Below are positions 27,780 through 33,609 of a stretch of 37,403 nucleotides of DNA, piece by piece (the stretch's first letter is position 1; every line of letters begins with the position of its first letter). Both the position numbers and the translations under genes were made by a program. The stretch is from NCBI GenBank assembly GCA_902533695.1, contig CACAMV010000008.1, forward strand, positions 1-37,403, read 5' to 3'. The DNA is from an uncultured SAR116 cluster alpha proteobacterium. GTDB lineage: Bacteria > Pseudomonadota > Alphaproteobacteria > Puniceispirillales > Marisalimonadaceae. The notes under the pieces were generated by a model, which did no database searches, had not been told where the DNA came from, and worked only from the letters and a program-made list of their open reading frames with translations.

Positions 27780-28721
27780 TTACTCTGAATTTAAGAAAGT
27801 ATCAACCTCTTCTTTTGAACCAAAAATAAATGGTGTCCTCTGGTGAATGTCGTTAACTTCAATATAAAGAATATCTTTAATGCCATCAGTTGATTTACCT
27901 CCAGCATTTTTAACTAAAAGCGCTATCGGATTTGCCTCATATGTAAGCCTCAATCGTCCATTTTTATTTTTTTCACGCAAATCATTAGGGTACAAAAAGA
28001 TTCCACCTCTATTAAATATTCTACTTGCGTCAGCTACTAGAGATCCTACCCATCTCATATTAAAATCTTTATTTCTTGGGCCATTTTTTCCTTTTTGACA
28101 ATTTTTAATATAATTTTTAACTTTTCTATTCCAAAACCTTTCGTAGGATGAGTTAATAGCATATTCTGAAGTAGTTTCAGAAATGGTCACATCTTTACAA
28201 ATTAGTTCAAATTTCATTAATTGGTGATTTAATAAAAACAAATGAGTTCCGTGCTTTAATGTTAAAAATAATGTTGTTCTTGGACCATAAACAAAAAAAC
28301 CTGAGCATAATTGGTTAATTCCTAGCTGTTTCACTGCTTCTTCATTTTTTAAATTATTTCTTGGAAGTATTGAAAAAATTGTTCCAATAGAAACATTTGT
28401 TTCAATATTTGATGAACCGTCTAGCGGATCAGTTATGACAACATAATCACCGTATTCGTTAAGATTAACAAAACCATCCTGTTCTTCAGAACAATAACAA
28501 CTTACATCTGCATTTTTAATTGAATTTAATAATATTTGATCTGAGAAAATATCTAGCTCCTTTTGAATATCGCCATCAGAATTTGTTGAAACTTTATATA
28601 CGTCATACGAATTATCCTTTATAGCTTGGCTAATTTTAATAGCAGCATCGCATAGGTTCAAAATAACTTTGTTAATTTTTGAATTATTAAAATTTTTATT
28701 TAAAAACTTGGAAATTTCCAA
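27780..28721 (-). CDS. fbp: Fructose-1,6-bisphosphatase, class I
   Basis: Hydrolyses fructose 1,6-bisphosphate to fructose 6-phosphate in gluconeogenesis or the Calvin cycle. The 313-residue product has the metal-binding SEEQDG near 79-84, ITDPLDGSSNIETNVSIGTIFSI near 96-118, VYGPRTTLFLTLKHG, RWVGSLVADASRIFNRGGIFLYP and YEANPIALLVKNAGG. It begins with TTG: an AGGAG site lies 7 bases ahead, an in-frame stop lies just upstream, and no nearby ATG fits. It is the first gene of the operon, divergent from the half-GlnE gene across a 107-base spacer that must contain both promoters. Confidence 0.95.
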   Translation of the reverse strand: MEISKFLNKNFNNSKINKVILNLCDAAIKISQAIKDNSYDVYKVSTNSDGDIQKELDIFSDQILLNSIKNADVSCYCSEEQDGFVNLNEYGDYVVITDPLDGSSNIETNVSIGTIFSILPRNNLKNEEAVKQLGINQLCSGFFVYGPRTTLFLTLKHGTHLFLLNHQLMKFELICKDVTISETTSEYAINSSYERFWNRKVKNYIKNCQKGKNGPRNKDFNMRWVGSLVADASRIFNRGGIFLYPNDLREKNKNGRLRLTYEANPIALLVKNAGGKSTDGIKDILYIEVNDIHQRTPFIFGSKEEVDTFLNSE

Positions 28722-28828
28722 AATATTCTCCTAATTTTTTCAAAATATTTTTTCAAATTTTGATTTTATTTAAATTAAGTGATTAAATTATTTTTAACTT
28801 TTAAATTAATCTAATTAAAGTATTAAAA

Positions 28829-30352
28829 TTGATCTATTACAACAAAATTAATCTCCCTGAAAATTTGTCCTCTTTGCATGATATTAACAATGGAAACAGT
28901 CATCATGTCAATGAACTAATTTCTTATTTGTTTACAGTAAAAAAATTAAATGCAAAGCAAGTTAAAACTTTATTCCTAAATTTTTTTGAAAATAAAATTC
29001 ATACAAGCATTAGGAAAAATTATACCACACTAATCGGAAAAATTTTAGATAATTTGTTACCAATAATGCTAAAGCATCCTCATCCAAAACAAGGAACTTA
29101 CCAGTTACTAAGATTTTTAGATCAATTAAGTCCAAATTTTGAATTTTTAGAGGAAATTCTGTCAAAAAAATATATACACTCTAACTTATGTAATGTCTTA
29201 GAATTTTCTGGTCATATTACAAATATTATTTCAAAAGATCCTTATTTGTTGGAGACACTAGACCCATATTTTTCTCTGAAATTAAATGAGAATATAAATG
29301 TATATAATAATGCTTTTGACAAGATTGATTATACTAATTTTGAAGAAGAAAAAATACTTAATGTATTAAGGATTACTCATCGAAAGCTTAAATTGAAAAT
29401 TATTTTGTCAATAATTAATAATTCCATTGAATTAAAACCTGCTTCACTAGAATTCTCTCTTCTTGCAAAATCTTGCTTAAAAAAAACCATTGAGATCGCA
29501 TATTATTTAATTAATAGCAAAACAAAATCAAGAAAAGTTCAATCTCTAGAAATAGGCATTATATCTTATGGGAAATTTGCACAAAATACAATGACTTCAA
29601 ATTCTGATCTCGACTTAGTTTTTATTTTTCCTGATAAAGTCATTAATAGTAATCAAAATTATAAAAATTTATATATTCCCTTTTCAAAAAAAATCATAAA
29701 CATCTTATCATCAAAAACATCTGAAGGAATTTTGTATGAGGTCGACACAAAATTAAAACCAACAGGTAAAGTTGGACCAGTTGCTTGTGATATCTCAGAA
29801 TTTTGTCAATTCCATAAATTCAAATCATTTTGCTGGGAAACAATAGCTTTAAAAAAAGCTAAATTAGTATTTGAGTCATCAAAGTTTCATGAAGAAATAA
29901 AAAATAATTTAGAAAATTTAAAACTTAAAAAAATTAAAATTAAAAATCTTGTTGATGAAATCAAAATAATGAGAGGTATTAAAATCAATAAAAATAAAGT
30001 TAAAATAAAAATGAACAAAATAAATTGGTACGAAACAAAATACTCTCTTGGTGGGCAAAGAGATATAGAATTTTTAAATTTTTTTTATGAAGAAAAAGAA
30101 ATTATTGAATTTATAAAAGATATTGATGAAAAAAAGATAATTATTAAAAGAATTGAAAATTTTTATTTTATTGTCGACCAGTATGTCAATATAACATATT
30201 TAAATCAAAAACCAGAAAAATTACCAAACAAAATATTAAAAAATATACTTAAAAAGTTAAATATAAAAAATCTTAGTCAATTAAAAACTCAAATTAAATC
30301 TCACAAAAACAAAATTAACGAGTACCTAAATGAAATATTGCATAATTATTAA
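28829..30352 (+). CDS. glnE: Half-length GlnE: glutamine synthetase adenylyltransferase domain only
   Basis: Related to GlnE, which adenylylates and deadenylylates glutamine synthetase, but only 507 residues long against about 950. It corresponds to the C-terminal, adenylylating half. Residues 60-150 match the helical lead-in (LLRFLDQLSPNFEFLEEIL, ISKDPYLLETLDP). The nucleotidyltransferase core follows: YGKFAQNTMTSNSDLDLVFIF with D260 and D262, EGILYEVDTKLKPTGKVGP with D306, and CWETIALKKAK. The TKYSLGGQRDIEFL segment and a shortened helical tail end the protein. The YEVD form is that of the C-terminal catalytic half. The glycine loop, normally GKLGG, reads GKFAQ. The start is TTG at 28829, with an in-frame stop 27 bases upstream and fbp beyond, so no N-terminal half adjoins it. 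amtB follows after 127 bases. Family certain; activity unproven. Confidence 0.85.
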   Translation: MIYYNKINLPENLSSLHDINNGNSHHVNELISYLFTVKKLNAKQVKTLFLNFFENKIHTSIRKNYTTLIGKILDNLLPIMLKHPHPKQGTYQLLRFLDQLSPNFEFLEEILSKKYIHSNLCNVLEFSGHITNIISKDPYLLETLDPYFSLKLNENINVYNNAFDKIDYTNFEEEKILNVLRITHRKLKLKIILSIINNSIELKPASLEFSLLAKSCLKKTIEIAYYLINSKTKSRKVQSLEIGIISYGKFAQNTMTSNSDLDLVFIFPDKVINSNQNYKNLYIPFSKKIINILSSKTSEGILYEVDTKLKPTGKVGPVACDISEFCQFHKFKSFCWETIALKKAKLVFESSKFHEEIKNNLENLKLKKIKIKNLVDEIKIMRGIKINKNKVKIKMNKINWYETKYSLGGQRDIEFLNFFYEEKEIIEFIKDIDEKKIIIKRIENFYFIVDQYVNITYLNQKPEKLPNKILKNILKKLNIKNLSQLKTQIKSHKNKINEYLNEILHNY

Positions 30353-30479: not shown

Positions 30480-31760
30480 ATGAAATTTTTGAAAATTATT
30501 TTCTTTTCCATTACTTTTGCTTTTCTTGTTAATACTGCAAATGCTGAAGTAGATAAAGAAGTACAATATATATTAAATTCTTTTTCTTTTTTAGTACATG
30601 GATTTTTAGTAATGCTAATGGCTGCAGGATTTTGTATGCTTGAAACAGGTTTGGTAAGAGCTAAGAACGCGGTTGTCCAATGTGCAAAAAACATTGGTTT
30701 ATATTCTATTGCGGGACTTATGTTCGCTTTTGTAGGGTATAATTTAATGTATTTAGATGTAACTAATTGGATAGGTTCTATTTCAATATGGAGTCCTTCT
30801 GACAAACTAGATCCGTTGGAAGGCGGTTATTCATCTGGATCAGATTGGTTTTTCCAAATGGTTTTCTGTGCAACAGCAGCTTCAATAGTAAGTGGAGCAG
30901 TTGCTGAAAGAGTTAAATTGTCAAGTTTTTTAGTATTTGTATTAATTTTGACTGCTTTTATTTACCCAATACAAGGATCTTGGTCTTGGGGTGGAGGTTT
31001 CTTAAGTGAAGCTGGATTTTTAGATTTTGCAGGATCATCAATTGTTCATGGAGTTGGAGGTTGGGCAGCCCTTACTGGAGCAATAATTTTAGGAGCAAGA
31101 AAAGGAAAATATACTGTTGAAGGTGACGTGAAACCAATGCCAGGATCTAATTTACCTCTAGCAACATTAGGTACTTTTCTTCTGTGGTTTGGATGGTTTG
31201 GATTCAATGGTGGATCTCAACTCGCAATGGGCTCTGCAGTAGATGTGGCGGCCATTTCCAATATATATATAAATACTAATCTTGCTGCAGCAGGAGGAGT
31301 GGTTGTATCAATAATTGTAACTATGTTGTATTATAAAAAAACTGATCTTACTATGGCCTTAAATGGTGCCTTGGGAGGTTTGGTTGCTATCACAGCTGAA
31401 CCGCTTGCGCCAAGTCCAATGCTTGCAATTTTTATAGGTGCAGTAGGAGGTTTTATAGTTGTATTTACTATTCCTCTTCTCGACAAATTTAAAATAGATG
31501 ATGTAGTGGGTGCTATCCCAGTTCATCTTTTTGCAGGAATTTGGGGGACCATAGCAGTAATATTTTCTAACGATGAAGCTACTTTTGGATCTCAATTATA
31601 TGGAATTGTAGCGATTGGCTTATTTACGATTATAACTTCAGGTGTTGTTTGGTATATACTTAAATTAGCAATGGGGATAAGAGTTACTGAAGAACAAGAG
31701 CTTGAAGGAGTTGATGTCAGTGAAGTTGGAATGGAAGCATACCCTGACTTTAGAAAATAA
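30480..31760 (+). CDS. amtB: Ammonium transporter AmtB
   Basis: Inner-membrane ammonium/ammonia channel. The 426-residue product starts with a signal peptide (residues 1-22, ending ANA), as in E. coli AmtB. Conducting residues are visible: the twin histidines H190 (SSIVHGVGGWAALTG) and H349 (AIPVHLFAGIWGT), the phenylalanine gate area FFQMVFCATAASIVSGAVAER near 124-144, and YPIQGSWSWGGGFL near 162-175. About eleven hydrophobic segments follow the signal peptide. An AGG ribosome binding site precedes the ATG. No PII gene (glnK/glnB), the usual partner, lies on either side. The upstream 127 bases contain imperfect A/T inverted repeats but no sigma-54 match; downstream is a strong terminator. 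Confidence 0.97.
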   Translation: MKFLKIIFFSITFAFLVNTANAEVDKEVQYILNSFSFLVHGFLVMLMAAGFCMLETGLVRAKNAVVQCAKNIGLYSIAGLMFAFVGYNLMYLDVTNWIGSISIWSPSDKLDPLEGGYSSGSDWFFQMVFCATAASIVSGAVAERVKLSSFLVFVLILTAFIYPIQGSWSWGGGFLSEAGFLDFAGSSIVHGVGGWAALTGAIILGARKGKYTVEGDVKPMPGSNLPLATLGTFLLWFGWFGFNGGSQLAMGSAVDVAAISNIYINTNLAAAGGVVVSIIVTMLYYKKTDLTMALNGALGGLVAITAEPLAPSPMLAIFIGAVGGFIVVFTIPLLDKFKIDDVVGAIPVHLFAGIWGTIAVIFSNDEATFGSQLYGIVAIGLFTIITSGVVWYILKLAMGIRVTEEQELEGVDVSEVGMEAYPDFRK

Positions 31761-31914: not shown

Positions 31915-33522
31915 TTACGATCTATAAACAAAGGTCTCCTCAGAAGATTTGTCCCAAAATTTTTCAAAAGCAGGATGATCTTTATGACTAGATTTTTTTA
32001 ACAAATCCTTATTATTCAGCCAGGGAAATATAGTTAGCGCAGACCCTAATTGTTTCCCATCTTTTCTAATGACAAGATGCTCAGGTTGAAATTTATTTGG
32101 ATGATCAATGCCAGCTGATTCTACTATCTCTTTTAACGCTCTTAATGTGCTATCGTGAAAGTTAAAAACCCTTTCTGATTTATCAGAAACTACTAATGCT
32201 CTTGAACGAGATTTGTCTTGTGTGGTTATTCCAGTCGGACATTTGCCATTGTGGCAGCTAAGTGCCTGAATACAGCCAAGAGAAAACATAAAGCCTCTTG
32301 CCATATTGCAAACATCTGCACCGATAGATGAAGTTCTTGCCAAATCGTGAGCTGATATCAATTTACCTGAAGCAATTAATTTAACTTGATCCCTAATCCC
32401 TAAACCGACCAAAGTGTTTTGAACTAACATCAATCCATCTTGCAAAGGAGCACCAATGTGATCCAAAAATTCACTGGGTGCAGCGCCTGTGCCTCCTTCA
32501 GAACCATCAATAGTTATAAAGTCAGGGCCATTTTTGAATTTTCTCATAGCTTTAGCTATACCAAACCATTCCCATGGATGGCCAATACACATCTTTATAC
32601 CTATCGGTTTACCATTTGACCATTCTCTTAAGTTTTCTATAAATTCTATTAACTCTGATGGAGTGTTAAAAGCTGAATGCGAAGAAGGGCTAATGCAATC
32701 CTTTCCAATTTCAACCCCTCTAGCTTTAGCAATTTCTGCATTTACTTTTGCCCCAGGTAAAATTCCACCATGTCCTGGCTTTGCTCCTTGAGAAAGTTTT
32801 ATTTCTATCATTTTTACTTGATCAATTGACGCTTGTTCTTTGAACATTTTTTTATCAAATTTACCATTTTTATCTCTACAACCAAAATATCCACTGCCAA
32901 TTTGCCAAATCAAATCGCCACCATTTTGTACATGATAATCTGACACACCTCCTTCTCCGGTGGTATGAGCAAAAGAACCTTTTTTGGCACCAGAATTTAG
33001 AGCAAATATTGCTTGAGGTGACAACGCACCAAAAGACATGCCGGAAATATTTAGCACGGAAGAATTATAAGCTTTTTTACATCTTTCTTTTCCAACTAAT
33101 ACTCTAAAGTCATGACTTTTTAAAATACTAGGTATTATTGAGTGATTTAACCATTCATGACCACTTTCAGACATGTCTATAATTGAACCAAACGGTCTTG
33201 ATCCACCAATTAATTTTGCTCTTCTATAAACAAGGCTCCTTTGATTTCTTGAGAAAGGGACTTGCTCATCATCAGATTCAACAAAATATTGTCTTATTTC
33301 TGGACGGAAACTCTCAAGAAAAAATCTTATTCTTGCTGTCAAAGGGTAATTCCTTAAAACAGAAGTTTGTTTTTGCGTAAAATCAATAAAACCAAATATA
33401 AAAGCTATTAAACCTAACAAAAAACTTAAAAAACTTAGAAACAAGAAATCAATTAAAAACAAAACCAAGCTGAAAGGCATTAATAGTGAGAAGAAAAACC
33501 ATACCAAATATCTTGTATTCAT
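31915..33522 (-). CDS. FMN-binding glutamate synthase-domain protein, membrane-anchored
   Basis: Stand-alone version of the glutamate synthase central/FMN domain (COG0069 type), without the glutaminase domain of GltB. From the ATG at 33522 it has 535 residues. A GTG at 33534 overlaps the GGAGGA ribosome binding site and is rejected. Residues ~5-45 form two hydrophobic membrane segments. The barrel shows MSFGALSPQAIFALNSGAKKG, TGEGGVSDYH, KLSQGAKPGHGGILPGAKV, TIDGSEGGTGAAPSEFLDHIG and IASGKLISAHDLARTSSIGAD. The iron-sulfur cysteines C-x5-C-x4-C are kept in GCIQALSCHNGKCPTGITTQD. The physiological reaction of such proteins is uncertain; some are annotated as glutamate synthase. It converges on amtB and is divergent from the TerB-like gene. 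Confidence 0.88.
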   Translation of the reverse strand: MNTRYLVWFFFSLLMPFSLVLFLIDFLFLSFLSFLLGLIAFIFGFIDFTQKQTSVLRNYPLTARIRFFLESFRPEIRQYFVESDDEQVPFSRNQRSLVYRRAKLIGGSRPFGSIIDMSESGHEWLNHSIIPSILKSHDFRVLVGKERCKKAYNSSVLNISGMSFGALSPQAIFALNSGAKKGSFAHTTGEGGVSDYHVQNGGDLIWQIGSGYFGCRDKNGKFDKKMFKEQASIDQVKMIEIKLSQGAKPGHGGILPGAKVNAEIAKARGVEIGKDCISPSSHSAFNTPSELIEFIENLREWSNGKPIGIKMCIGHPWEWFGIAKAMRKFKNGPDFITIDGSEGGTGAAPSEFLDHIGAPLQDGLMLVQNTLVGLGIRDQVKLIASGKLISAHDLARTSSIGADVCNMARGFMFSLGCIQALSCHNGKCPTGITTQDKSRSRALVVSDKSERVFNFHDSTLRALKEIVESAGIDHPNKFQPEHLVIRKDGKQLGSALTIFPWLNNKDLLKKSSHKDHPAFEKFWDKSSEETFVYRS

Positions 33523-33609
33523 ATTATCCTCCACTTAATTTATTTATTTTAAATCTAAAAATTTGTAGTAAGTTATTAACTATATAAATAATTTATAACA
33601 AGTGGAAGC

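Follow-up and report, generated by a model that had tools for sequence, protein, structure and literature searches.

A natural single-headed GlnE conserved in a SAR116 family, putatively a one-way glutamine synthetase adenylyltransferase

Introduction

What becomes of the control of glutamine synthetase (GS) when its regulator GlnE is encoded as one half only? Adenylylation of GS is a standard example of reversible control, which teaching assigns to an enzyme with two heads. In the E. coli GlnE, the C-terminal head adenylylates and the N-terminal head deadenylylates (PMC12409994). The window analysed here, a stretch of 37,403 nucleotides from an uncultured SAR116 cluster bacterium, carries a glnE of about half the usual length. 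We ask which half it represents, whether it is a genuine gene, and in which direction its single head would act.

Gene structure and assignment to one half of GlnE

The half-length glnE occupies positions 28829–30352 on the forward strand, an open reading frame with a TTG start and 507 aa, in which linker/regulatory-like helices (residues ~1–118) precede an adenylyltransferase domain (119–357, Pfam) and a helical C-terminal part. The TTG is credible as the start because in the alignment it falls within one residue of most relatives' ATG (ML[YH]KKL..PINL). The sequence-only reading had held that an in-frame stop 27 bases upstream and a divergent fbp leave no place for an attached N-terminal half, and both features are confirmed: the TAA lies at 28802–28804 (forward strand), and fbp, encoding a class 1 fructose-bisphosphatase (27780–28721, reverse strand), starts at 28721.

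That reading had also recognized only the C-terminal half of GlnE in these 507 residues, and the domain matches bear it out. The Pfam family of GlnE (PF03710) matches once, over residues 119–357 (113.3 bits; cut-off 24), and residues 29–417 align to positions 465–859 of the 946-residue NCBIfam model of bifunctional GlnE. The equivalog scores (NF008292, 161.7 bits vs 487; NF010706, 139.2 vs 724) fall far under their cut-offs, as is to be expected of a protein that lacks one half; the absent part is the N-terminal deadenylylating domain, so the protein does not qualify as a bifunctional GlnE. Against the E. coli structures, a family profile matched the adenylylating domain (3K7D, E 1.3e-41) more strongly than the N-terminal domain (1V4A, 3.2e-20), and the half-gene profile scored the C-terminal domain above the N-terminal one (76–165 bits vs 34–80) in all of the full-length GlnE proteins tested. 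The predicted model (mean pLDDT 72.8) superposes on both heads, with Z 31.7 for 1V4A and Z 29.0 over 405 residues for 3K7D, reaching 3K7D residue 946, and this does not by itself decide between the N- and C-terminal assignments. The helical subdomain PF08335, matched twice in full-length GlnE proteins, is undetected by HMM in the half-gene, although the alignment of the model with 3K7D extends as far as residue 507.

At residue level, the translation places the catalytic D-L-D (D260, D262; 29606–29614, forward strand) within SDLDLVF, whose leucine is replaced by valine in some family members, and the translation and family alignment place the third catalytic aspartate, D306 (29744–29746, forward strand), within YEVDTKL. 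All three aspartates are invariant among the family members read. Positions that separate the two heads are mostly C-like in the half-genes, which carry the C-head signature residues M255, T256, Y303, E304, F325 and D412. The clear exception is R411, located by the head comparison in the GGQRDIE motif (30050–30070, forward strand): all family members read have it, as do 39/39 of the N-terminal heads and 0/39 of the C-terminal heads compared. The transferase domain of GlnD has a similar GGLRD motif. Otherwise invariant positions are also changed in the half-genes, namely G233, R308 (to K) and Q418 (to F/Y). Profile scores, signature residues and the position in the tree described below place the head closer to C-terminal than to N-terminal heads, and judged by its sequence the window gene is the GlnE linker joined to the predicted adenylylating C-terminal half.

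Conservation in the family and descent

The genome of the window is fragmented, 1.15 Mb in size and 60% complete, and within that assembly no GlnE domain occurs besides the half-gene. The absence becomes convincing because near-complete relatives also lack a second domain. The named relatives that a protein search brought up are SAR116 cluster genomes, obtained from single cells or as metagenome bins. A survey of relatives for the short form, which the sequence-only reading had proposed, recovered a single-domain GlnE without a second strong domain in 30 of 37 sampled genomes of the same family (f1), that is, in all GlnE-positive ones, including genomes that are 93–100% complete (G003, G005, G006 and G009). 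The remaining seven are consistent with genome incompleteness. Frames span ~495–530 codons, with two exceptions of 474 and 379 codons that are both cut by contig ends. Full-length GlnE, which that reading had considered as a sign of a truncated pseudogene if it occurred in close relatives, was found in sister families only and nowhere within f1.

The dN/dS of the half-gene is 0.12–0.31 (eight pairs), a sequence-based estimate indicating purifying selection. A pseudogene, a truncation at a contig edge or missing data are ruled out by one form, one start and one context in at least 30 separately assembled genomes together with dN/dS <1, and the chance that the gene is a truncated pseudogene or an assembly artefact is close to nil. 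By these genome comparisons, the f1 organisms are small-genome ocean bacteria that share a natural, conserved single-headed GlnE.

An N-terminal half encoded elsewhere, the other outcome that the sequence-only reading had weighed, was sought with a profile that combines eight N-terminal heads from this order and scores 703 and 670 bits on true N-terminal halves (G042, G037). Across 14 f1 genomes it retrieved no such half: the half-gene itself was the only match in 11 (54–79 bits), and the other three gave nothing. Two candidate locations were rejected. In some relatives 1.7 kb separate fbp from glnE, and this space is occupied by two other genes; the weak second PF03710 matches of relatives fall in frames as long as GlnD, several of them at GlnD places.

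The order fbp (reverse), glnE (forward), amt (forward) is kept throughout f1 wherever the contig reaches; in the window, amt, a marine-subtype ammonium transporter (TIGR03644), lies at 30480–31760 on the forward strand. In some f1 members two additional genes separate fbp from glnE (L042 3368–4920 and L051 3361–4930, both reverse strand), and by eye these were named FMN-binding PaiB-like and pirin-like. Adjoining amt in the window, a reverse-strand gene (31915–33534) encodes 539 residues with a Glu_synthase domain only, far shorter than full glutamate synthase. The fbp-glnE-amt setting is absent at the glnE loci of the sister families; therefore either glnE moved or the neighbourhood was altered.

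Sister SAR116 families f2 and f4 encode two-headed GlnE in frames of 914–1035 codons. No GlnE match was found in one f4 genome (G039, 99% complete) or in family f3, and GlnE seems to have been lost repeatedly within this order; in G039 and f3, GlnA was found, and GlnD and PII mostly so, despite the missing GlnE. More widely, among 290 alphaproteobacterial and 347 Pseudomonadota genomes, a strong GlnE came with at least two matches in all but the window's genome and G081, a count that is blind to heads too diverged for the profile. G081 (99% complete, 1.4 Mb) presents a mirror case: the GlnE-like protein of its locus L221 (1–2169, reverse strand; 776-codon frame) retains SDIDL and D-L-R-L-R-P in the N-terminal head, and its C-terminal head looks degenerate (no YEVD).

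In a tree of 92 rows all half-genes group together on a long branch (2.35) that joins at the C-head end, and support of 53/58 does not decide between a place inside the C-heads and one just beside them. A clade uniting the half-genes with same-order C-heads was not rejected (p 0.445). Since this test neither rejects nor demonstrates the clade, vertical descent of the half-gene within the order is rated as likely on the sequence comparison.

Glutamine synthetase, PII and GlnD

Each f1 genome with a match encodes one GlnA, and the adenylylation tyrosine (D-L-Y-E-L-P), a check suggested by the sequence-only reading, is kept in 24/24 f1 GlnA proteins read. Its retention is weak evidence of modification, because GlnA without a GlnE partner also keeps it (e.g. 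L144, L236 and L240); the tyrosine is necessary for GS modification but not telling. The residue that follows is E in f1 (LYELP; e.g. L187 1771–3195) and D in the sister families (YDLP). We rejected this D-to-E change as a sign of co-evolution, given that A, H and S also occur there across the class and that YELP is likewise found in L240, whose genome has no strong GlnE.

The PII protein encoded next to glnA retains the uridylylation tyrosine in its T-loop, RGAEY(V/I)VDFLPK, which in the window's genome reads RGAEYVVDFLPK. Most f1 genomes encode a full-length GlnD, and the copies read have their nucleotidyltransferase motif intact; the incomplete genome of the window yielded no GlnD.

Direction and reversal of the single-headed reaction

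What such a head does is suggested by engineered precedent. In Azorhizobium, a truncated C-terminal GlnE ('uAT') adenylylates GS in one direction and shuts it down, and strong unopposed uAT activity is costly to the engineered cells (PMC9249168); something must therefore balance the half-length GlnE of f1. By sequence and by this analogy, the best reading is that it is a natural, uAT-like unidirectional GS adenylyltransferase. We consider it somewhat more probable than all else that loss of the N-terminal domain left a functional one-way head that adenylylates GlnA, with reactivation by another route. The ancestor of one SAR116 family would have lost the deadenylylating domain and retained the linker and adenylylating domain; the single head would move AMP from ATP onto the conserved tyrosine of the sole GlnA, braking ammonia assimilation under plentiful nitrogen, presumably under the control of PII and glutamine. 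The classical phosphorolytic reversal would not be performed by this protein, and GS may be reactivated through dilution and new GS synthesis, or by an unrecognized enzyme. From the gene content, the two-way GS switch of f1 appears to have been reduced to a single direction or reconstructed. Counting against one-way adenylylation are the long branch, the changed invariant positions, the undetected PF08335, the lack of a GlnD match in the window's incomplete genome, and R411, as found in the deadenylylating half.

That last residue, in its GGQR context, is a reason to consider a bidirectional head, adenylylating GS with PII and removing AMP phosphorolytically with PII-UMP or under nitrogen starvation. 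The retained GlnD and uridylylatable PII would make the PII-UMP signal available, and the animal AMPylase FICD runs both directions at one active site (PMC12409994). Most other head-separating residues are nevertheless C-type, including E304 where N-heads have R, and GlnD and PII have other targets, so that their retention need not concern GlnE. Moreover, R411 may not mark deadenylylation at all, given the likeness to the GlnD motif. We regard a bidirectional head as unlikely, and its specific form, in which f1 regained the arginine of the lost head and compressed the bicyclic cascade into one domain with one active site working both ways, as very slightly less probable again.

A separate deAMPylase is one branch of the preferred reading stated as a claim of its own: the head would adenylylate GS, and an unrelated, unrecognized enzyme of phosphatase or phosphodiesterase type would remove AMP, as SidD reverses SidM. 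The harm of unopposed adenylylation in engineered cells (PMC9249168) and the existence of deAMPylases of several folds (PMC12409994) speak for it, but no obvious candidate stands among the glnE neighbours (fbp, amt, the pirin-like and FMN-binding-like genes), and as a specific claim its probability is low. Lower still is that of a half-length GlnE that no longer modifies GS and instead regulates by binding PII or GS, or has a different adenylylation target; the long branch, the substitutions at otherwise invariant positions and the undetectable PF08335 would fit such a change, yet the three catalytic aspartates are invariant under purifying selection, and a mere binder need not keep them.

Comparison with known enzymes and biological meaning

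With bifunctional GlnE (GS-ATase; E. coli, NF008292 and NF010706) the half-length protein shares the linker and C-terminal domain, homologous over nearly its full length, the catalytic aspartates and the predicted fold (3K7D); it differs in the absent N-terminal domain, the undetected PF08335, the R411 and K308 changes and scores far under the NCBIfam cut-offs. It resembles the engineered uATs of Azospirillum and Azorhizobium (PMC9249168) in that the AR domain is gone and the AT domain kept, but those are laboratory truncations with demonstrated activity, whereas the half-length GlnE is natural, family-wide and selected, with activity predicted only. The adenylyltransferase domain of Legionella SidM/DrrA is likewise a single nucleotidyltransferase AMPylase head of similar fold (6YX5, Z 15.5), although its target and context are different and the similarity is distant. 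A natural single-headed GlnE is not described in the openly licensed papers searched.

With a natural one-headed GlnE fixed in a marine family, experiments can address whether GS adenylylation has to be reversed at all, whether its reversal is replaceable, or whether one head can carry it out. The half-length proteins may also serve as natural templates for the uATs used to get nitrogen-fixing bacteria to release ammonia.
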